A stretch of 64,000 nt of DNA, taken from the NCBI RefSeq assembly GCF_011378715.1, contig NZ_WTKU01000021.1, forward strand, positions 1 through 64,000, written 5' to 3'. This document shows positions 43,637 to 54,335 of the stretch, one piece after another. A program made the translations under genes and the position numbers. The DNA is from Psychromonas sp. SA13A. Its GTDB lineage: Bacteria > Pseudomonadota > Gammaproteobacteria > Enterobacterales > Psychromonadaceae. Under the pieces are notes generated by a model that was not told the DNA's origin, did not search any database, and saw nothing but the letters and a program-made list of their open reading frames with translations. Each line of letters opens with the position of its first letter. Within the stretch, counting starts at the first letter, position 1.

Positions 43637-44908
43637 ATGAATGCCTTACTCGAAGATTTAAAAGCGCGCGGCCTAATTGCCCAAACAACCGCAGATGAAG
43701 AACTACATGAACATTTATCGAGTGCAAGCCGTACTTTGTATTGTGGCTTTGATCCTACTGCTGATAGCTTACACATTGGTAGCTTAGTGCCTTTATTAAT
43801 CCTTAAACGTTTTCAGGAAGCAGGCCACAAACCTTTAGCTTTAGTGGGCGGTGCAACTGGTTTAATTGGTGACCCAAGCTTTAAAGCGGCAGAGCGTAAA
43901 TTAAACAGTGATGAAATTGTCGGTAACTGGGTGGATTCAATTAAAAAACAAGTTAGTGCTTTTATTGAGTTTGGTGAGCACGATAATGCAGCTGAAGTGG
44001 TGAACAATCTAGATTGGATCGGGAAAATGGATAGCATTTCATTTTTACGTGATGTAGGTAAACACTTCAGTGTTAATGCCATGATCCAAAAAGAATCTGT
44101 AAAACAACGAATTGACCGTGAAGGTGCAGGTATTTCATTTACTGAATTCAGCTACATGTTATTACAATCTTATGATTTTGCTGCATTGAATAAAGAAAAA
44201 GCCTGTACGTTACAAATCGGTGGTTCTGATCAATGGGGTAATATTACCGGCGGTATCGACTTAACTCGTCGTATGAATCAAGAAAAAGTGTTTGGTATTA
44301 CTATGCCATTAGTGACTAAAGCAGATGGCACTAAGTTCGGTAAGACTGAGTCTGGTACTATTTGGTTAGACCCGACTAAAACATCGCCATACGCATTTTT
44401 TCAATTTTGGATCACCACGCTAGATGCTGATGTTTACAAATTTTTACGCTACTTTACCTTCTTATCAATTGAAGAAATTGCAGCAATAGAAGAGACAGAT
44501 AAAACAATCAAAGGGCGTCCACAAGGCCAAGCTATTTTAGCGCGTGAAGTAACACGTTTAGTACATGGTGAAGAAGGGTTAGCATCTGCTGAGCGTATTA
44601 CTGAAGCATTATTCTCTGGGAACTTAAGTAGCTTAAGTGAGTCTGATTTAGCGCAATTAGCACAGGATGGACTACCAGCGACTGAAGTGACGACAGACAG
44701 TGCTTCAATTGTTGAATTATTAACAAGTTGTGAATTAGCGGCATCAAATAAAATGGCCCGCGAATTTGTTAATAACGGTGCTGTAATGGTTAATGGTGAC
44801 AAAGTCACCGATACAGAAGCAACTATCGAAAAAGTAGATGCTTTATTTGCTCGTTACACATTAATAAAACGTGGTAAGCGTTTATTTAACTTATTTATTT
44901 GGAAATAA
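43637..44908 (+). CDS. tyrS: Tyrosyl-tRNA synthetase
   Basis: It charges tRNA-Tyr. A class I synthetase of 423 aa with [16 protein letters not shown] (HIGH-type motif, residues about 35-50), [14 protein letters not shown] for tyrosine binding and KFGKTESG in place of KMSKS. The C-terminal S4-like RNA-binding domain ends [12 protein letters not shown]. The stop overlaps no conserved part of the next gene, which starts within 12 bases. Confidence 0.97.
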
Positions 44909-44919
44909 AAGTGAATAAT

Positions 44920-45600
44920 ATGATTTTAAAAAACTCATTATTAAAAGTATCAATCGGCTCATTAGTTAGTGCATTTTCTTTATCGGCGATCGCTGCTGAT
45001 AATACTGACACTTGGGTTGATATGAGTGACCCGACTGCGGTTTATTCTAATGCGAGTATTGGTGGTGGTAATGAAGGTATTGATTTATCTGCTACCTACG
45101 GTGGTTATTTAAGTGGTGTTTATAAACATAGCTTTACCGTTGCAGCCAAGCAAGATTTTGATTTTTATGAAGTCAATTATCTGTTATTAAATTCAGCCAC
45201 TAAATCAGGTGTCACTTTTGATAGCACATGGGATAAAGATATTCGTATAGATCATACTGATTATGATGATGTGAATGATACCTCTGCCGGTGTATTTGCT
45301 AAGCTTGGTTATTTGAATAACCGTTTAAACTTTTATCCTAAAATAAGTGTTGGTTTTATGTGGGCAAACCACATGGAAGATACAACTTATGTAAAATTTG
45401 ATGCGACAACGCGTTATAGCTTTGACCGTCGTTTTTGGGTTGGTATTACACCAACCTATGCGCATGGTATGAAGGGCGTTAATTTCAACGAGTGGACAGC
45501 AACCATTGATGCCGGTGCACAATTGTCTGATTCATTTGGGGTTAGTTTAAGTGCTAATGACGATGAAGAATTTACCGCTAACGTTACCTTTGCTTTTTAA
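44920..45600 (+). CDS. Outer-membrane beta-barrel-like protein, unknown
   Basis: A 226-aa exported protein. The signal peptide ends SLSAIAAD near residue 22. The mature chain is made of alternating amphipathic strands rich in Tyr, Asp and Gly, and ends ANVTFAF, with the terminal aromatic of outer-membrane barrels. I do not recognise a named family. ATG 44920 and GTG 44911 are both possible starts; GGA at 44901 suits GTG better, while the signal peptide is complete from ATG. It starts just after tyrS, so readthrough from tyrS is likely. Confidence 0.7.
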   Translation: MILKNSLLKVSIGSLVSAFSLSAIAADNTDTWVDMSDPTAVYSNASIGGGNEGIDLSATYGGYLSGVYKHSFTVAAKQDFDFYEVNYLLLNSATKSGVTFDSTWDKDIRIDHTDYDDVNDTSAGVFAKLGYLNNRLNFYPKISVGFMWANHMEDTTYVKFDATTRYSFDRRFWVGITPTYAHGMKGVNFNEWTATIDAGAQLSDSFGVSLSANDDEEFTANVTFAF

Positions 45601-45938: not shown

Positions 45939-45980
45939 TTTACTTGCGCGGTATTGCTAATGATAATCGGAATCGTTATC
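45939..45980 (+). promoter_or_regulatory. Fur box over the promoter of the iron operon
   Basis: GATAATCGGAATCGTTATC (45962-45980) matches the classical 19-bp Fur consensus at 15 of 19 positions, and the surrounding bases extend the dyad. A -35-like TTTACT (45939-45944) and -10 GATAAT (45962-45967) are 17 bp apart, so Fur binding would cover the -10. The first gene starts 79 bp further on. Confidence 0.75.
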
Positions 45981-46058
45981 ATGTTGCTTTGTGAGAGTTC
46001 GGTTTTTATCATCTTACATTATAAACAATTTTTCACTGACAATATTTGGATATTTTTA

Positions 46059-46475
46059 ATGAAGTTTACCCAAACTGTATTTATCGCATTATTTTTTGCA
46101 CTTATTACCACTAAATCATCGGCTGAAACGAGCCAATCCACAACAAGTGTAGAAACAGATAGCAATGGCTTCAGCCAAACCTTTAATGACCCTCGCTATA
46201 CCAAATTAAAAACTTACCTTATTGAAATGAAAGACGGTGAGTTGATCCCTGCACAACTAGTGATCCCAGAGAAAACTAAAATTCGTCTTGTGGTCCGTAA
46301 TATTGGTAATAAACCTGCGGAATTTGAAAGCAATCAATTACGCCAAGAAAAAGTGTTATTCATGGGGGCGGAGACAACCTTAGTGATTATCCCATTAGAT
46401 GCTGGCAGTTATGATTATTTTGATGATTTTGCGCCAGCAACACACGGTAAAATTATTGTTAAAGCAAAAGGGTAA
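46059..46475 (+). CDS. Stand-alone EfeO-type cupredoxin-like periplasmic protein
   Basis: A 138-aa exported protein with a signal peptide to about residue 22. The mature part is a cupredoxin-like sandwich of the kind found at the front of EfeO: ELIPAQLVIPEKTKIRLVV, NKPAEFESNQLRQEKVLFMG and DAGSYDYFDDFAP. The Cys ligand of type 1 copper sites is absent, so if it binds metal it does so differently, perhaps iron or copper through acidic and His/Met residues. ATG 46059 follows TTGGA and is preferred to readings from 45954 that would run through the Fur box. It is first in the operon, 4 bp before FTR1. Confidence 0.8.
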   Translation: MKFTQTVFIALFFALITTKSSAETSQSTTSVETDSNGFSQTFNDPRYTKLKTYLIEMKDGELIPAQLVIPEKTKIRLVVRNIGNKPAEFESNQLRQEKVLFMGAETTLVIIPLDAGSYDYFDDFAPATHGKIIVKAKG

Positions 46476-46479
46476 ATAA

Positions 46480-47352
46480 ATGGGACAAACAATTTTTGTT
46501 GTCTGTAGAGAGAGCATTGAAGCACTCTTAGTGATCGGAATTCTTTATGCTTGGATGGATGGAAGAGCGGACGCTACAACAGGTAAAAAATGGTTGTTTT
46601 CCGGCGTGTTAGCTGGTTTTGGTTTGGCGGCATTATTGACGTTAACACTGATTGGTGTATCAGATTTATTAGGCGGCGAAGGGCGTGCTTGGTTTGAAAT
46701 CGGCATGTTGGCATTTGCCAGTGCCTTGATTGTTCAAATGGTGATGTGGATGCGGGTTCATGGTCGCACCTTGAAAAAAGAGCTGGAAACAGGATTAGAA
46801 AAAAGCCTGCAAGGTAAAAAAAGTTGGTGGGGCGTATTTTTCTTAGCAATGATTGCGGTAGGTCGTGAAGGTTCTGAAACCGTTATGTTCCTTTATGGTT
46901 CTCTTTTACAACTTGGTACGCTTGCTTCTTACATTAGCTTTTTCACTGCGGTGGCAATTGGTCTAGCACTTGCGATGGTGTTGTTCTATGCATTGCAAAT
47001 AGGCGGTCGATTTATTTCTTGGAAATGGTTCTTTCGCGTAACCGAAATTATGTTGCTTTTCCTTGGTTCGGCACTGTTTTTGACTGCATCAGAAAAGTTA
47101 TTAAGCGGCCCTTTAGCGGCGACAGATTTACCGAGTTGGTTATACAGCAACATGTGGGACATGAGCAGTGTATTAAGCGATGGTTCTATTTTTGGGAACT
47201 TACTGGCTTCGTTATTTGCTTATCGTTCACAACCCATTGGTTGGGATGTGGCAGTGCTAGGTACTTATTGGCTGGTGGTCATGGTAATACTGAAGTGGCA
47301 ATCTAAAGACAAAACTATTGCTATTGCTCAAGTGACAGCAGAACAAGTTTAA
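46480..47352 (+). CDS. FTR1-family high-affinity iron permease
   Basis: A seven-helix inner-membrane permease that carries ferric iron, usually after periplasmic oxidation of Fe2+. Both iron-binding RExxE motifs are present: RESIE at residues 10-14 in the first helix and REGSE near residue 128 in the fourth. Length 290 aa matches EfeU-type permeases. It lies 4 bp behind the cupredoxin-like gene and upstream of imelysin and di-haem genes, so it is the membrane channel of the system. Confidence 0.93.
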   Translation: MGQTIFVVCRESIEALLVIGILYAWMDGRADATTGKKWLFSGVLAGFGLAALLTLTLIGVSDLLGGEGRAWFEIGMLAFASALIVQMVMWMRVHGRTLKKELETGLEKSLQGKKSWWGVFFLAMIAVGREGSETVMFLYGSLLQLGTLASYISFFTAVAIGLALAMVLFYALQIGGRFISWKWFFRVTEIMLLFLGSALFLTASEKLLSGPLAATDLPSWLYSNMWDMSSVLSDGSIFGNLLASLFAYRSQPIGWDVAVLGTYWLVVMVILKWQSKDKTIAIAQVTAEQV

Positions 47353-47476
47353 ACAAACTATTTATAACAAATTGCAGAATACGATTAACTAAGTTGCAGG
47401 AAGCAATTAACCCAGTGAGTTTTATTCATCAATTTAAAACTCACTAACGTTTTAATGTACATCAGGAGTAATGAAA

Positions 47477-48808
47477 GTGAAGAAAACAATTTTAAGTACC
47501 ATTATCGCAGGCGCTGTATTAGCTTTTTCTGTACCAAGCCAAGCAGCTGTTTCACAGAGTGATAAATTAGCAACCTTGTCTACCTATGCAAGCATTGCTT
47601 CTGTTAACTATTCAGATGCTGTTAAAGATGCAAAAGCATTACAAGTTGCGATTAGTGCTTTTACTGCAAAACCAACTGCAGAATCATTACAAGCAGCTAA
47701 AGATGCTTGGTTAGTGTCTCGTGAAAGCTACGGTACAACAGAAATTTTCCGCCTTTCAAATGGTCCTATCGATGCTGAAGATGGTTGGGTAGCTGAAACC
47801 TATGGTGGTGTTGAAGGTGAGCTTAACTCTTGGCCGCTAGATGAAAACATGATCGATTACACAATTGATGCTAATAACAAGCGCACTAGTGGCAATATTA
47901 TTGATACTAAAGGTTTATTCACGCCAGGCGGAGAAGATGTTACTGCGGTAGACGTGACAACAATCACACCTGCGGTATTAGGCGACTTAAACACAAATGG
48001 TGGCGATGCAAACGTTGCTGCAGGTTACCACGCCATTGAATTTATGCTCTGGGGACAAGATCAAGATTACAATAACATGATTGAAGATGCTATCAGCAAC
48101 GGTGCAATGACTGCTGGACAACGTCCACTGTCTGACTTCACCACTGATAAATTAGCAAAACGTCGTCTTGATTACCTTAATGCTGTCGCAGCTAAAATGG
48201 TTGATGATTTATCAGTCGTATCTAGCGCTTGGGAAGCCAACGTAAGTGGTGATAAAGGGCTATACCGTGCTGCTTTATTAGATAAATTAACAGGCGAGCA
48301 AAAATCTAAAAATATTGAACCTGCTACTTCTTTAAAACAAATTTTTGCCGGTGTTGGTGTTTTCTCTAAATCAGAATTAGCTAACGAACGTATTGCCGTT
48401 GCAGTATTAACGCCAAGTGAAGAAGACGAGCATTCATGTTTCTCTGATAATACACACCGTGATATCGCATTAAACTATCAAGGTATTAAAAACGTATTAT
48501 TAGGTGAATACAAAGGTAAAAAAGTAGGTCCTGCTTTTATCGATAATGTATCAGATGAAGAGCAAGCTGAAATTGCTAAACTGATGGCTGATATTGAAAT
48601 GCGTATTGCTAAAATTAATACATTAGCAACAACGACTATGCATTTTGATTACCAGATTCGTCCAGAAAATGAAGAAAGTGTACAAAACATTGTTACGCTT
48701 AAAAACCAACTACGTCGTCTAGGTGATCAAATGGTGATTGTTTCTAAAGCCTATGGTATTTCGTTAACAACAAATGATGTTACCGATGCAGAAGAAACAC
48801 AACTATAA
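47477..48808 (+). CDS. Imelysin-family (IrpA/EfeO-like) periplasmic protein
   Basis: An exported protein of 443 aa with a clean signal peptide (MKKTILSTIIAG start, cleavage near SQA). It belongs to the M75/imelysin family, whose GxHxxE motif is present as GYHAIEFMLWGQD near residues 183-195. Members bind iron in the periplasm and pair with FTR1-type permeases. GTG 47477 is preferred: AGGAG lies eight bases before it, but only two before ATG 47471. DEHSCFSDNTHRDI and MHFDYQIRPEN further on are conserved in the IrpA branch. The peptidase activity once proposed for the family is doubtful. Confidence 0.9.
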   Translation: MKKTILSTIIAGAVLAFSVPSQAAVSQSDKLATLSTYASIASVNYSDAVKDAKALQVAISAFTAKPTAESLQAAKDAWLVSRESYGTTEIFRLSNGPIDAEDGWVAETYGGVEGELNSWPLDENMIDYTIDANNKRTSGNIIDTKGLFTPGGEDVTAVDVTTITPAVLGDLNTNGGDANVAAGYHAIEFMLWGQDQDYNNMIEDAISNGAMTAGQRPLSDFTTDKLAKRRLDYLNAVAAKMVDDLSVVSSAWEANVSGDKGLYRAALLDKLTGEQKSKNIEPATSLKQIFAGVGVFSKSELANERIAVAVLTPSEEDEHSCFSDNTHRDIALNYQGIKNVLLGEYKGKKVGPAFIDNVSDEEQAEIAKLMADIEMRIAKINTLATTTMHFDYQIRPENEESVQNIVTLKNQLRRLGDQMVIVSKAYGISLTTNDVTDAEETQL

Positions 48809-48878
48809 AGCGATGAACTGATAGCTGTTGTTATTGAAGTTAATGACCTTCTAGCATTAATTAGAAGGGCATTATGAT

Positions 48879-48912
48879 AAACGCCACTAGCCGAAATCGG
48901 TCGGTGGCGTTT
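48879..48912 (+). terminator. Intra-operon hairpin
   Basis: aaacgccac (48879-48887) and gtggcgttt (48904-48912) enclose a smaller ccga/tcgg stem. Few T residues follow, so it may attenuate transcription or stabilise the upstream transcript. Confidence 0.55.
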
Positions 48913-48944
48913 CTCGTCCCAGTCATTTATTTTGAAAGTGATGT

Positions 48945-50345
48945 ATGAAAATTAATGGTAGTAAGGTCTCGGAGTATCTGCTTCGAAGTGTATTTTTGTT
49001 TTTAGCATGCAGCCATTTTGCCCATAGTGAAGCGAGCAATGTCAATATAGAACAATTTACTAATGCGGCCGGTAGTAAACCTTTTTCTGTTCCTATGAAA
49101 ATGACAGATACAGAGTTTGACCAGTATATTCTGGGGCGTTCTTTTTTCACTATCCCATGGGTTGAAGCACCGAGTGCAACTACTGCACGAGACGGGTTAG
49201 GTCCTCATTTTAGCGCCAATACCTGCGCCAGTTGTCACATCAATAACGGTAGTGCGCCGACGCTCAGTGATACAAACCAACCCTTACGCAGTTTAGTCTT
49301 CAAGTTAACTCAGCCAAGTAAACATTCATTACGTTGGTTAGTAAATAATATAGATACCCCTATGCATGATAATGTGCCGGATCCCATTTATGGTGTGCAG
49401 GTATCAATAAGAGGCAACGGTAAAGTAAAACCAGAAGCGCAAACAAGATTAAAAATCGAATCAATACCTTTTACATATCCTGATGGTGAATCACTTATGT
49501 TAACTAAGTTTATTCCTTATTTAGATAAGTTAGGTTATGGGCCATTAGCTGAAGAAACAACTATTTCGCTAAGGCAACCTCCTGTTTTGGCTGGTTTACG
49601 ATTAATAGAGCAAGTTTCAAATGAAGATATCCTTGCGTGGGAAGACCCATCAGATGATAATGCTGACGGAATTAGTGGCCGTGCGAATTGGTTAAACTCC
49701 CCACAGCAAGATGAAAAAATATTAGGGCGAATGAATTGGAAAGCTAGTGCTGCCAATATTATTGCGCAAACGGCAAACGCTGCAGCACATGATCTTGGTT
49801 TAACTAACCCTTCTTTTCCTGATGAGCTTTGCCAACCTGCACAAGCTGACTGTATAGCGGCACCTAAAGGAGACAATACAAGGTTAGGAAGTTTAGACTT
49901 ACCTATGTTGCGTTTACAAGCGATTACCTCTTTTATTAGAGACCATAAAGCACCTAAAACCGTCAGGTTAGATGCGCAAGGTCAGCAAGGTAAAAAACTA
50001 TTTACAGAAATTGGCTGTGCTAGTTGTCATCGTTCGACATTAAGCACAACGAAAGGCGTTAAATTCCATCCTTATTCTGATTTACTGTTGCATGATATGG
50101 GGGAACTGTTAAAAGATGGGCGTCCAGAATTCCTTGCCACTGAGCGTGAGTACCGCACTGCGCCTTTATGGGGAGTAGGTGAACGGGTTCGAGCACAACA
50201 TCGTTTTTTACATGATGCACGCGCGAAAACACCGGAAGAGGCAATTCTTTGGCACGGTGGAGAAGCTGAAAAGGCAAAATCAACATTTATACAATTAGAC
50301 CAAGCACAGCGCTTGGCCTTGTTACACTTTTTGGAGCAATTATGA
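48945..50345 (+). CDS. Di-haem oxidoreductase (DHOR/DUF1111, 'thiol oxidoreductase') c-type cytochrome
   Basis: A periplasmic c-type cytochrome of 466 aa. The signal peptide ends near residue 28. Two haem-attachment motifs are seen: CASCH at residues 94-98 and CASCH again near 344. Between them are RQPPVLAGLRLIEQ and DGISGRANW, typical of this peroxidase-like family. It is annotated in related genomes as a thiol oxidoreductase beside imelysins, without firm biochemistry. In this context oxidation of Fe2+ or electron removal for FTR1 is a reasonable inference. The next gene overlaps its stop by four bases (ATGA). Confidence 0.9.
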   Translation: MKINGSKVSEYLLRSVFLFLACSHFAHSEASNVNIEQFTNAAGSKPFSVPMKMTDTEFDQYILGRSFFTIPWVEAPSATTARDGLGPHFSANTCASCHINNGSAPTLSDTNQPLRSLVFKLTQPSKHSLRWLVNNIDTPMHDNVPDPIYGVQVSIRGNGKVKPEAQTRLKIESIPFTYPDGESLMLTKFIPYLDKLGYGPLAEETTISLRQPPVLAGLRLIEQVSNEDILAWEDPSDDNADGISGRANWLNSPQQDEKILGRMNWKASAANIIAQTANAAAHDLGLTNPSFPDELCQPAQADCIAAPKGDNTRLGSLDLPMLRLQAITSFIRDHKAPKTVRLDAQGQQGKKLFTEIGCASCHRSTLSTTKGVKFHPYSDLLLHDMGELLKDGRPEFLATEREYRTAPLWGVGERVRAQHRFLHDARAKTPEEAILWHGGEAEKAKSTFIQLDQAQRLALLHFLEQL

Positions 50346-51373
50346 AAATTTTTACCCCCCTGTCAATTCTGTGTTTACTGAGTGTGCCAGCGCTAAGTCA
50401 TGCTGAGCAGACTAATACGGTGGTCAATGATGCAGAGGTCAATAATGAAGTGGTGAAAGACCCTTATGCTTCTATTTACGACAATGTGCTGCAGCATAAT
50501 GCCGATAACGCAGTGCTATATTGCGCAGAGTTACAAACTTCGTTAGAAAGCAAATCAAGTGATGTGCGTCACCAAGCATTTGTGCAACTTGCGGAAGGGT
50601 GGGGACGAGTACAAGCTAGTTATATTCTTGGTGACTACGACATGAATGCAATGGATTACCCATTAATGGTGGATTACTTCCATAGTGGTAATGAAGATAT
50701 TCATGAAAGCATTGAACGTCTAGTGGGGCGTGACTCAAAACCGTCAACCGCATTATATAAAAATTCATATAAAACCATGGGCGCAATCGACTCTGTTATG
50801 TTCAGCGGTGAATGGTCTGAACGCAGAAAAGCCTTTGCTGAAGTAATGGTCGCGAACGTTTGTAAGCGATTTATACAAATTAGTGATGGCTATAAAGCCA
50901 ATCGTGATGAATTTCTTTTTGATGTAGATAGAGGTTTGTCTTTAGTTGTGAATGCTGAGATTGAGCATATTTATAAAACAAGAGATTGGCGTATTGCTCA
51001 AGTCAGTGGGTTAACAAAAGCTAATCTTGGTGAGACTAAACCAGAGCATCAACAATACCCTTACAGCGAAGCATCTTGGGCATTTATCGGTGGGGTTTTA
51101 GAAACTAATAGACAATTGTTAGCGGAAGACCAGCAACCTAACGTGGCAACTATTGCCTATGAAAAACATGGTAAAGAGGGGATTAATGCAGTGCAAGCCG
51201 CGTTAGAAAACTCATTACTTGCTTATAAAAACACACCTGCAGACCATAATTTTAATTTAAACGACATGATCCCAATTTTCCAGGGATTGTTAGATGTTCA
51301 AAAAGCCTTTTATAGACATTTAGTGAGTCAGATTGGCGTATCGGCGAATTTAATCGATGCAGATGGCGATTGA
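50342..51373 (+). CDS. Second imelysin-family protein with degenerate metal motif
   Basis: An exported protein of 343 aa with a signal peptide to about residue 21. Overall pattern and place match the small imelysin paralogue found behind di-haem oxidoreductases. Where the family has GxHxxE, this protein appears to read MGAIDSVMF, so the metal-binding His is missing and Glu is replaced by Asp. It may serve as a structural or cytochrome-docking partner of the first imelysin. It overlaps the di-haem gene by 4 bp and the hydroxylase gene by about 17 bp, so all three are translationally coupled. Confidence 0.78.
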   Translation: MKIFTPLSILCLLSVPALSHAEQTNTVVNDAEVNNEVVKDPYASIYDNVLQHNADNAVLYCAELQTSLESKSSDVRHQAFVQLAEGWGRVQASYILGDYDMNAMDYPLMVDYFHSGNEDIHESIERLVGRDSKPSTALYKNSYKTMGAIDSVMFSGEWSERRKAFAEVMVANVCKRFIQISDGYKANRDEFLFDVDRGLSLVVNAEIEHIYKTRDWRIAQVSGLTKANLGETKPEHQQYPYSEASWAFIGGVLETNRQLLAEDQQPNVATIAYEKHGKEGINAVQAALENSLLAYKNTPADHNFNLNDMIPIFQGLLDVQKAFYRHLVSQIGVSANLIDADGD

Positions 51374-52271
51374 TACACCTTTAGCGGCATTTATGAATGG
51401 TAGTGACCGCATATTCTGGGGCTACCTTGTTGTTAGCGGGATCATTGCCATTGTTTGGTATGTCTTCAAAGTGGGGGCTATTTCAGCACCCCAATTAAAG
51501 GCTTATTGGTTTAATGCTGACTCAAAATTAGATTATCGTTATTTTGTATTTAATTGGGTATTCAAGGCACTGTTTATTGTGCCTGTTTTACTGTCAGCGA
51601 ACACGGTTGCGCTGTCGACGCTGAATTGGTTGAACTCGATATCGGATCCCTTGTTTTTGTCCTGGTATTATCGCGATATTATTGTCGCGTACACTTTCAG
51701 TTTATTTGTACTTGGCGATTTTAGTCGCTATTGGTTGCATCGTTGGTTACATACTAATCGATGGTTATGGAAGTTTCATCAGGTACATCATAGTGCTGAA
51801 TCATTGAACCCATTGACATTTTATCGCTTACATCCTGTGGAAATCATGTTGTTTGCACTACGTAATGCATTGGTTGCTGGTGTTGTTACAGGCATTTTTG
51901 TTTTTTGTTTTGGCGCGCGTATTAATCTTTATTCGGTATTAGGTGGCAATGCCTTTGTTGTGATCCTATTTTCTTTTACTGGCAACCTGAGACATAGCCA
52001 TATTCGCTTGAGTTATGGGCGTTGGTTAGAGCGTTTATTAATATCGCCAGCACAACATCAGGTGCACCATCAACAGAAATATATACACAAAAATTTAGGC
52101 AGCATCTTAGCCTTGTGGGATTGGCTCTTTGGTACATTAAGGCTATCAAAAGACGTTCCTTTAGATCAAAAATTTGGTTTAGGGCGCGGTAAAAGAGAAA
52201 AATTTGATGGCATTATAAAAATTATTATTCAGCCATTTTTTGATATTTACAGAAGTATTAGACGGAATTGA
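51357..52271 (+). CDS. Membrane fatty-acid hydroxylase / sterol desaturase-family di-iron protein
   Basis: A 304-aa integral membrane protein with about five helices. The histidine clusters of the family are present: HRWLH, HQVHH and a later HQVHHQQKYIHKN, with NPLTFYRLHP between. These ligate a non-haem di-iron centre that hydroxylates or desaturates lipids using O2. ATG 51357 and ATG 51363 are both possible; either overlaps the preceding gene. The next gene starts one base after its stop. A lipid-modifying oxygenase inside an iron-uptake operon is unusual. Confidence 0.86.
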   Translation: MQMAIDTPLAAFMNGSDRIFWGYLVVSGIIAIVWYVFKVGAISAPQLKAYWFNADSKLDYRYFVFNWVFKALFIVPVLLSANTVALSTLNWLNSISDPLFLSWYYRDIIVAYTFSLFVLGDFSRYWLHRWLHTNRWLWKFHQVHHSAESLNPLTFYRLHPVEIMLFALRNALVAGVVTGIFVFCFGARINLYSVLGGNAFVVILFSFTGNLRHSHIRLSYGRWLERLLISPAQHQVHHQQKYIHKNLGSILALWDWLFGTLRLSKDVPLDQKFGLGRGKREKFDGIIKIIIQPFFDIYRSIRRN

Positions 52272-52272
52272 A

Positions 52273-53433
52273 ATGAAAAAAATATTTTATTGTTTACTCG
52301 CATTAATCGCTTGCACAAACGTAGCTAACGCCGCTGGTCAATTGACTGAAGCACAATTAGGACAAATCTTGTTTCTTGACTCTAACTTTTCTGTTAATCG
52401 TACTATGTCTTGCGCAACTTGCCATGATCCTTCGAAAAGTTTTAGTGACCACCGTGAAAATGTAGGACTTGGTATGGTTTCATTAGGAGACGACACTAAA
52501 TCTCTCGGTACGCGTAATACTCCCATGGCAACATACGCCAACACATCACCATCATTTCATTTTGATGAAGTATTAAAAGAGTATGTTGGAGGGCAATTTT
52601 TAGATGGTCGTGCTAACACATTATCTGACCAGGCAATGGGGCCGCCACTTAACCCTGTTGAAATGGCCTTACCCGATGCCGAAACGCTCGTTAAACGCTT
52701 ACAAGAAAACCCTTTCTACGTGTCTACTTTTAAGCGCTTATACGGTGAAACCGTATTTGACTCAAAGCAATCAGATACAGTTTTGCCTGCTTTTGATGGT
52801 TTTTCACGTGCACTACAAGCATTTGAAAAAACAGATGCCTTCTCTAGTTATGACAGTAAATATGATCGCTTCCTAAAAGGCGAGTACGACCTGACAGTCT
52901 TAGAAGATCTTGGGCGTACTTTATTCTTCTCGAATAACAATGTTAACTGTAATAGTTGCCACATGTTAAAAACTGAAGACAGCCCAAAAGAACCATTTAC
53001 GAATCATCAGTATCGTAATATAGGTGTGCCTTCTAATGATCAATTATTAGCATTAGGTCATATAAAAGAAGACTTTATTGACCACGGTTTATTAGAGAAC
53101 CCAGCAGTTGATGACCCAAAATATGATGGTAAGTTTAAAAACCCGTCGTTACGTAATGTCGCAGTGACAGCACCTTACATGCATAATGGTGTGTTTAAAG
53201 AGTTGCGAACGGTGATGGAGTTTTATGATCATTACAATAATACAGAACGCACTATTAATCCTGAAACTGGTAAACCTTGGCGTTCACCAGAAGTGCCTAC
53301 GACCGTTGATAAAGAAGATCTTACCGCTCATGCTTTAACAGATCGGAAAATAGATGCCTTAGTTGCCTTTATGAAAACGTTAACGGATAAACGCTTCGAA
53401 CCTTTATTGATGCTTGATAAGAAGTCGAAATAA
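52273..53433 (+). CDS. Di-haem cytochrome c peroxidase family protein (MauG/CcpA type)
   Basis: A periplasmic di-haem cytochrome of 386 aa. The signal peptide ends VANAA near residue 21. Haem motifs are CATCH (47-51) and CNSCH near 221. The family segments DPSKSFSDHRENVGLG, RGNTP-like RNTPMATYAN and APYMHNGVFKEL with its candidate axial Met are present. It reduces peroxide or performs MauG-like long-range oxidations. ATG 52273 is one base after the hydroxylase stop. It is the last gene of the iron operon and may remove peroxide formed during Fe2+ oxidation or serve as the oxidant. Confidence 0.88.
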   Translation: MKKIFYCLLALIACTNVANAAGQLTEAQLGQILFLDSNFSVNRTMSCATCHDPSKSFSDHRENVGLGMVSLGDDTKSLGTRNTPMATYANTSPSFHFDEVLKEYVGGQFLDGRANTLSDQAMGPPLNPVEMALPDAETLVKRLQENPFYVSTFKRLYGETVFDSKQSDTVLPAFDGFSRALQAFEKTDAFSSYDSKYDRFLKGEYDLTVLEDLGRTLFFSNNNVNCNSCHMLKTEDSPKEPFTNHQYRNIGVPSNDQLLALGHIKEDFIDHGLLENPAVDDPKYDGKFKNPSLRNVAVTAPYMHNGVFKELRTVMEFYDHYNNTERTINPETGKPWRSPEVPTTVDKEDLTAHALTDRKIDALVAFMKTLTDKRFEPLLMLDKKSK

Positions 53434-53738: not shown

Positions 53739-54335
53739 ATGAGAAGAATAATCTTAATTTTGGTGCCGTTATTATTTTCAGTAACTGCCCAAGCAACATT
53801 GATGAGTGCTGAAACCATTGGTGCTGTAACTACTAATAATGGTAGTTTTATTATAGATTCAAGCAATGGCAAAAATAAAAATAAAGTAGCGCAATTGACC
53901 GGCGTAGAAAAGAACGCTTTTAATAGTATTGCGACGGGCAACGTAACATCTGGCTCAGCTTATAAAAATACCGTTGCAGTTGATGCAGGTTCAACTTTTT
54001 CATTTGATTGGAAATGGTTGAGTAATGAGGGTTCAAACTCTTGGTACAACGATTTTGCATTTGTTAACTTGAGCTTAGGTAGTCTAGATTGGCTTGCTGA
54101 TACGTCGACGCCTGACTATACAACAGGCAGCTTTGCTTGGACCGCAGCAGAATCTGGTTGGTTAACTTATACCATTGGTGTATTTAACGTTAAAGATTCT
54201 TTTGCTAATTCAACATTAACAGTGAACAATATTTCAGTGTCCAATCCTGTATCTGTACCAAGTCCTGCTTCATTCGGTATATTGGCAGTGGCATTAGTTG
54301 GATTGATGGTTAGTCGCCGTAGAAAACAGGTATAA
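53739..54335 (+). CDS. PEP-CTERM-like exported protein
   Basis: A 198-aa secreted protein. A signal peptide runs to about residue 20 (TAQA). The middle is a Ser/Asn/Gly-rich beta domain. The C-terminus has the sorting-signal layout: VPSPASFG, a hydrophobic helix, then SRRRKQV, a PSP variant of PEP-CTERM. Such proteins are cleaved by an exosortase and exported with exopolysaccharide. No exosortase gene is in this window. The function of the mature domain is unknown. A bidirectional terminator separates it from ettA. Confidence 0.75.
   Translation: MRRIILILVPLLFSVTAQATLMSAETIGAVTTNNGSFIIDSSNGKNKNKVAQLTGVEKNAFNSIATGNVTSGSAYKNTVAVDAGSTFSFDWKWLSNEGSNSWYNDFAFVNLSLGSLDWLADTSTPDYTTGSFAWTAAESGWLTYTIGVFNVKDSFANSTLTVNNISVSNPVSVPSPASFGILAVALVGLMVSRRRKQV

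Follow-up and report, generated by a model that had tools for sequence, protein, structure and literature searches.

Seven genes on the plus strand of the 4.57-Mb genome of Psychromonas sp. SA13A, at 46059-53433 of a 64-kb window (the stretch of contig NZ_WTKU01000021.1 analysed here, positions 1 to 64,000), encode in order a cupredoxin, an FTR1 iron permease, an imelysin, a di-haem oxidoreductase (DHOR, also DUF1111), a second imelysin-like protein, a membrane hydroxylase and a MauG-family di-haem enzyme. We somewhat favor the view that these genes form an oxidation-coupled iron importer with gene 7 as the Fe(II) oxidase. Gene 7 likely oxidises iron before import, because related clusters hold a copper oxidase at exactly that position. 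The broader proposal is that a MauG-family c-type di-haem enzyme serves as a periplasmic ferroxidase, a haem counterpart of Fet3 that feeds FTR1 or ferric ATP-binding cassette (ABC) importers and has been swapped one-for-one with a multicopper oxidase in the same operon; to this we give just short of an even chance. The parts of the unit, their conserved order, the lack of a DyP peroxidase or multicopper oxidase in the host, the exchanges of both oxidase and importer, and the residues are all read from sequence alone.

The exchange at the seventh position (slot 7) carries most of the argument. Gene 5 is rare, being found in 3 of 368 other sampled Gammaproteobacteria and, in a sample of the phylum, in 2 of 396 genomes beyond two Psychromonas, and it occurs in 15 of 83 genomes of one family of small Gammaproteobacteria (the small-genome family). 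Among the 15 loci of this family found through gene 5, slot 7 is occupied by a multicopper oxidase in eight (L101, L121, L123, L124, L126, L127, L129, L130) and by a MauG-like gene in seven (L100, L118, L119, L120, L122, L125, L128), never by both. Two more multicopper-oxidase loci (L136, L137) were found through the oxidase itself and are thus not an unbiased sample. Altogether, a MauG-like gene stands at position 7 in 27 module loci (the window's own, 15 FTR1 relatives, L079, L080, L099, L131 and the seven of the small-genome family) and a multicopper oxidase in 10, and the two were never observed together at the slot. The copper-binding motifs are complete in all 10 slot oxidases, and the one searched (L101) resembles CueO. 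In a protein tree of 41 loci with imelysin, DHOR and hydroxylase (excluding L059, L087, L088, L136 and L137), the eight oxidase loci are nested within MauG-bearing loci with a support of 0.967, which indicates that MauG is the older occupant of the slot and fits a single replacement of MauG by the oxidase.

In four of the 10 oxidase loci, one of them from G461, gene 5 and/or the hydroxylase is broken or gone and the imelysin, DHOR, oxidase and FbpCAB genes are retained; in another genome, G460, just oxidase fragments are left in the stretch examined. DHOR adjoins imelysin in all 10 swapped loci. We considered DHOR as the oxidase that replaces EfeB and rejected this as the principal explanation, since DHOR persists beside the multicopper oxidase throughout. 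It thus appears to be the MauG-like gene 7, and not DHOR, that is the exchangeable oxidase. The original prediction had cast both di-haem cytochromes as the ferroxidase or its electron sink; the slot exchange supports an oxidase role for gene 7 and speaks against it for DHOR.

All 29 gene 7 sequences have two CxxCH haems with an axial Tyr; none deviates at either haem His or at the counterparts of MauG Q103, E113 and axial Y294 (MauG numbering mapped through the gene 7-MauG alignment), and none has an equivalent of W199. Gene 7 therefore has the ligand set of MauG but not its protein-modifying residue. In a search with a profile of 8 homologues, MauG was the closest solved relative in the PDB (1.2e-112), and the best NCBIfam model is MbnH-like, below its cut-off (150.7 of 362.85 bits).

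Consistent with the prediction that neither EfeB nor a multicopper oxidase is present, searches with PF04261 (DyP/EfeB) and Cu-oxidase_3 returned no match in the host genome, which has one FTR1 and one Pfam-visible imelysin; DyP/EfeB was found in one of the 24 genomes of the genus. A second DHOR is encoded elsewhere in the host, on contig C5 (L091:4761-7579), directly after an RCC1-repeat lipoprotein-like gene, and a DHOR with a similar upstream gene occurs in G003 and G009. In Leptospira, an RCC1 and di-haem gene pair is peroxide-induced (PMC7567364).

The assignment of the seven co-directional genes to their families and the Fur-like site in front of them, as originally proposed, were confirmed by Pfam and structure matches and by the rank of the site, the best in 64 kb (Table 1). 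Gene 1 matches FtrB (PDB 8vuk, 1.5e-24, with a profile of 9 homologues); the FtrB-type iron Glu pair EFE(x6)E is kept in all 20 gene 1 homologues examined, and 19 of the 20 have no Cys beyond residue 25. Gene 2 carries the motifs RESIE and REGSE, and at least two RE..E motifs are kept in 21/21 FTR1 sequences. The scores of gene 2 lie under both the EfeU and TIGR00145 cut-offs (117.7 bits against 255 for the EfeU equivalog model). Gene 3 matches the ICMP structure 7xrx (5.8e-58), and GxHxxE is present in 45/45 imelysin homologues. Gene 5 has no Pfam match in the window and was recognised as imelysin-like via its homologues, with IPPA as the nearest fold and ICMP tied. The His boxes of gene 6 are invariant across 8 Psychromonas homologues, and a simple His-box pattern fits 35 of 42 wider hydroxylase homologues, missing L048, L081, L082, L085, L086, L099 and L129. 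Apparent N-terminal signal peptides were seen by eye in genes 1, 3, 4, 5 and 7. Genes 2 and 3 lie 118 bp apart, and genes 3 and 4 lie 136 bp apart. Some hydroxylases of the gene 6 family use tetrahydrobiopterin; a GTP cyclohydrolase I gene lies divergent just upstream of the operon at L035:8292-8864 (by Pfam) and L037:8362-8934 (by its matching start).

Table 1 Features of the seven-gene unit and its upstream region in the window
Feature	Position	Strand	Description	Profile match
Candidate promoter TTTACT-17-GATAAT	45939..45967	+	9/12 matches; not established	
Fur-box-like site	45956..45980	+	two overlapping 15/19 matches, at 45956 and 45962, to the 19-bp consensus	
Gene 1	46059..46475	+	exported FtrB/EfeO-type cupredoxin without Cys	PF13473 1e-24
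Gene 2	46480..47352	+	FTR1 iron permease	PF03239 3.7e-30
Gene 3	47471..48808	+	imelysin, ICMP type, GxHxxE	PF09375 2.6e-63
Gene 4	48945..50345	+	DHOR/DUF1111 di-haem protein	
Gene 5	50342..51373	+	second imelysin-like protein, IPPA-type	
Gene 6	51357..52271	+	membrane di-iron hydroxylase family	PF04116 3.8e-26
Gene 7	52273..53433	+	MauG-family di-haem enzyme	PF03150 2.3e-44

The unit is not confined to this genome. This type of FTR1 is present in 8 of the 24 Psychromonas genomes (own included), and in 7/7 Psychromonas relatives with FTR1 the seven genes occupy the corresponding position, in the interval from tyrS to an ABC-F gene. Among 28 FTR1-relative loci in named genomes, none of which was dropped, 15 hold the full seven in order: six from Psychromonas (with Psychromonas arctica DSM 14288, L038, among them), three from Marinomonas, one from a gammaproteobacterial metagenome-assembled genome (MAG) and five from Rhodobacteraceae, including L049, whose contig breaks off within gene 7. 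The seven-gene order is thus conserved over Gamma- and Alphaproteobacteria with the genes mostly touching, and imelysin and DHOR are neighbors in 45 of the 46 loci with both. The alphaproteobacterial copies group on the tree with those of Psychromonas, Marinomonas and the gammaproteobacterial MAG, apart from other gammaproteobacterial copies, which suggests that the seven-gene unit moved between lineages by transfer. The remaining 13 loci comprise two from Psychrobacter with P19-cupredoxin-FTR1-MauG and no imelysin or DHOR (L047, L050), one from Bdellovibrio with imelysin-DHOR-cupredoxin-FTR1 (L059), six FtrABCD-like loci with P19 upstream (an FtrD-type ferredoxin is present in L055 and L057, the two tested), three in which cupredoxin-FTR1 stands alone and a short contig that shows just FTR1.

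The importer appears to be exchangeable as well, with an ABC importer of the ferric-binding-protein type replacing cupredoxin-FTR1. Cupredoxin and FTR1 precede the module in 16 loci (the window's own and the 15 above), whereas in the small-genome family each of the 13 loci whose contig continues has FbpC-A-B-type genes after slot 7, with FeoB in between in L119. The best PDB match of the binding protein of this family is an Fe(3+) ABC transporter binding protein (5.6e-105). L131 has an ABC operon in front of the module. The ATPase of this operon scores above the curated ferric cut-off (631 vs 496), its binding proteins are similar to those for aminoethylphosphonate, with scores under the cut-off, and a separate FTR1 lies in convergent orientation to it. 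No importer adjoins the module in L099. In Psychromonas G007, the corresponding chromosomal site holds imelysin, DHOR, gene 5, hydroxylase and MauG without cupredoxin and FTR1, and the Fur-like region in front of them matches. This module branches inside Psychromonas on the tree, so that G007 likely lost cupredoxin and FTR1, although the deciding nodes are weak (0.93, 0.86, 0.40). G012 (51% complete) has the same five genes, ending at a contig edge. Ferritin-like genes lie near the operon in L046, L048, L101 and L122, and one is inserted between imelysin and DHOR at L120:7742-8194; these five genes near the module were chosen by eye and confirmed by Pfam. In seven small-genome-family loci, one of them with a fragmentary copy, the imelysin is preceded by a porin-like outer-membrane gene, as at L100:6175-7122, and this gene is a candidate for outer-membrane iron entry. 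Downstream of the Psychromonas operons, a minus-strand gene labelled 'FbpC' proved to be the neighboring ABC-F gene, and the label is likewise false in L083 and L084.

Upstream of the unit, the two 15/19 Fur-like matches, scored against the 19-bp consensus, are the best of the window; in a random control, at least 15/19 was reached in 8 of 2000 Markov 450-mers and 14 in 71 of 2000. An aligned Fur-like site (14-15/19) precedes the operon in Psychromonas L035, L037, L038 and L039 and the FTR1-less L079, and in the other arrangements of imelysin-DHOR within the genus, the divergent regions carry sites of 14-16/19 in 9/9 cases; the best score in the Marinomonas copies is 13 of 19. Fur would be predicted to repress the seven-gene unit. 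The 17-bp-spaced promoter originally placed here is not established: its match is no better than chance, and promoter-like sites in the window are fewer than the chance expectation. In L039 and L079, a pair TTGATT-17-TATGAT or TATACT was seen by eye downstream of the Fur-like site.

In the mechanism that we propose, gene 7 would turn periplasmic Fe(II) into Fe(III) by way of a MauG-like high-valent di-haem state, H2O2 being the probable oxidant. The imelysin-DHOR pair would bind, hold and pass on iron, DHOR acting as a partner of imelysin, either an electron carrier or an enzyme that loads it. The cupredoxin would hand iron to FTR1, which would move Fe(III) across the inner membrane. For gene 5 and the hydroxylase we predict an accessory role, since it is these genes that are broken or missing where shrinking genomes retain imelysin, DHOR, oxidase and importer. 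Besides the exchanges at slot 7 and of the importer, the four oxidase loci with gene 5 and/or the hydroxylase broken or gone, the catalytic residues conserved in 29/29 sequences, the Fur-like site, the nearby ferritin-like genes and the Psychrobacter loci in which a MauG-like gene follows P19-cupredoxin-FTR1 speak for this mechanism. If it is true, metal oxidation would join the roles of MauG-like enzymes, and the travelling of DUF1111 and imelysins with very different iron importers would be explained. For the iron-oxidising step of EfeB-less bacterial FTR1 systems, a specific enzyme family is now proposed, together with its natural replacement by evolution.

Several observations weigh against gene 7 as an iron oxidase coupled to import. 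The swap amounts to one replacement on the tree. We also tested for a genome-wide exclusion of MauG and multicopper oxidase and did not find it: a multicopper oxidase is encoded elsewhere in two of the eight Psychromonas genomes with the seven genes (G003, G009) and in 5 of the 7 MauG-slot genomes of the small-genome family, so that the exclusion at the slot is local. Neither MauG nor a multicopper oxidase adjoins imelysin-DHOR-cupredoxin-FTR1 in the Bdellovibrio locus, and for cupredoxin-FTR1 in Marinobacter (L054, L056) and in MAG L061 the stretch examined shows no partner oxidase of the di-haem or copper kind; slot 7 is therefore not always needed. In seven Psychromonas genomes, imelysin-DHOR loci with a divergent hydroxylase lack an adjoining MauG, oxidase or FTR1. 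The equivalent of MauG W93 is Trp in just 11 of the 29 gene 7 sequences, and the DHOR model is moderate. NCBIfam names none of the three L100 transporter proteins ferric (the ferric ATPase model scores 189 bits against a cut-off of 496). The aligned Fur-like site was not found in L034 and L036, and Fur-like sites are missing from the Rhodobacteraceae copies, which reach 10-11 of 19. A fungal FTR1 has moreover been reported to function without a ferroxidase (PMC11836134).

We weighed four other explanations. Gene 7 could be a modifier of the MauG/MbnH type, oxidising Trp or Tyr of imelysin, DHOR, gene 5 or cupredoxin to build a metal site without acting on iron, as its closest solved relative, its best NCBIfam model and the axial Tyr kept throughout would suggest. 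However, the electron-hopping W199 is absent from every sequence, and the candidate targets do not follow the occupant of the slot: all Trp conserved in imelysin, DHOR and gene 5 of the 27 MauG-slot loci are conserved in oxidase-slot loci too (8, 8 and 6 compared). The only Trp/Tyr differences in this comparison, which covered imelysin, DHOR, gene 5 and hydroxylase, are imelysin Y336 to F and hydroxylase Trp 87 and 256, and Trp is missing from the window's mature cupredoxin. We regard such a modifier as unlikely. It is likewise rather improbable that gene 7 and DHOR are cytochrome c peroxidases (CCPs) which clear peroxide from the periplasm and so spare iron-handling proteins Fenton damage, beside a permease that needs no oxidase. 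Both proteins belong to the di-haem peroxidase superfamily, the fungal report fits this idea, and H2O2 induces a cytochrome c-like gene of Leptospira that probably shares an operon with two imelysin genes (PMC7567364), but gene 7 has the axial Tyr of MauG and not the Met or His of CCPs, a Tyr versus Met contrast drawn in the same report. Against scavenging stands also the replacement of gene 7 in 10 loci by a multicopper oxidase; multicopper oxidases as a class reduce O2, not H2O2.

The unit could alternatively be a loose assembly in which imelysin-DHOR or the cupredoxin alone oxidises or binds iron and gene 7, hydroxylase and FTR1 are uncoupled travellers. Imelysin-DHOR does occur alone in the genus and beside FTR1 without MauG in L059, and EfeO-like proteins have been suggested to be Fet3-like (PMC3577903). 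Such an assembly is nevertheless quite improbable in view of the touching gene order kept in two classes and of slot 7, which always holds MauG or a multicopper oxidase where gene 5 or the hydroxylase adjoins an importer. Least of all do we expect a module for copper or haem instead of iron, even though MbnH-like enzymes (6e1c) and CueO are copper-linked and a protein of the imelysin family has been connected with the use of iron from haem in Staphylococcus aureus FepAB (PMC3577903): the genes adjoining the module or its parts include FTR1, ferric-binding-protein transporters, P19, ferritins and FeoB (L119), most Psychromonas copies have Fur-like sites, and the cupredoxins keep the FtrB Glu pair and, in 19 of 20, no Cys past residue 25.

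Parts of the proposed importer resemble known systems. Xu et al. 2011 described the ICMP/imelysin operons PA4370-PA4373 and VC1264-VC1266 as Fur-linked sets of imelysin, DUF1111 and IPPA-type imelysin, and the legend of their Figure 8 lists EfeU/Ftr1 among imelysin contexts (PMC3143127). The Fur-controlled imelysin-DUF1111-IPPA core is thus already published. The window shares with it the GxHxxE imelysin, the adjacent DUF1111/DHOR and the IPPA-type second imelysin, and has a Fur-like site in front. Its unit is larger by cupredoxin-FTR1 on the upstream side and hydroxylase-MauG on the downstream side, and it lacks DUF1513, which the Psychromonas copies of that type (L087, L088) have. The same paper equates EfeB with DUF1111 (PMC3143127), which blurs the distinction between EfeB and cytochromes drawn originally. 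Like EfeUOB, the unit has an FTR1-family permease and cupredoxin and M75 domains; these domains are, however, encoded by the separate genes 1 and 3 and not by a fused EfeO, the host genome has no DyP EfeB, and the permease falls under the EfeU cut-off. In EfeM-type systems, the M75 protein also stands alone (PMC9174327). FtrABCD of Bordetella and Brucella likewise has an FtrB-type cupredoxin with the iron Glu pair adjoining FTR1 (FtrC) with REXXE, whereas the seven proteins and two flanking ones include no P19/FtrA (PF10634) and no FtrD (Fer4), imelysins and di-haem proteins being present instead. According to a paper on FtrB, the proteins FtrA, FtrB and FtrD all fall outside the known redox families, and an in vitro study cited there found that copper-loaded FtrA oxidised Fe(II) (PMC11966278). 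If gene 7 is an oxidase, the unit would be alike to yeast Fet3-Ftr1 in pairing an oxidase with a REXXE permease, but the oxidase would be c-type di-haem, and the multicopper oxidase in the slot of its relatives adjoins an ABC importer. Gene 7 belongs to the same family as MauG, MbnH and BthA and keeps the Tyr ligand, Gln and Glu, yet lacks W199 and is encoded among iron-uptake genes.

A cytochrome or hypothetical protein lies beside the FTR1/P19 cluster in some Proteobacteria (PMC6083913). Among the matches listed in a search of open-licence papers, none pairs MauG with FTR1 iron uptake, puts imelysin and multicopper oxidase in one operon, or deals with the seven-gene unit or the slot swap; one paper on MauG and ferroxidase treats the two apart. 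The claim that the whole unit is undescribed therefore holds as far as these papers go, but not for its published core nor as a peculiarity of this genome. The suggested comparison of FTR1-DUF1111 neighborhoods recovered the seven genes in order in other genera and also the module without FTR1; with G007, the other layouts and the FbpABC-type importers, imelysin-DHOR proved not to be tied to FTR1 in the way that the proposed FTR1/imelysin/thiol-oxidoreductase core implied.

The other Psychromonas genomes illustrate this further. In seven, the hydroxylase is divergent from imelysin-DHOR (over two contigs in G005), which links the hydroxylase to imelysin-DHOR independently of MauG and FTR1; a Fur-like site lies between the divergent hydroxylase and imelysin(-DHOR) in L081-L086 and L089. 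Two (L087, L088) have imelysin-DHOR-IPPA-DUF1513 with a divergent multicopper oxidase, and five of the 24 have no DHOR. No genome was seen with two of these layouts; 3 of the 24 genomes are less than 90% complete. The unit of the window is flanked by a conserved exported protein (44899-45600, between tyrS and the unit), with a weak PagL hint (E 0.24), and by a PEP-CTERM-like protein gene after the unit (53739-54335), which is also present in six of the seven genus relatives, L023 being the exception.

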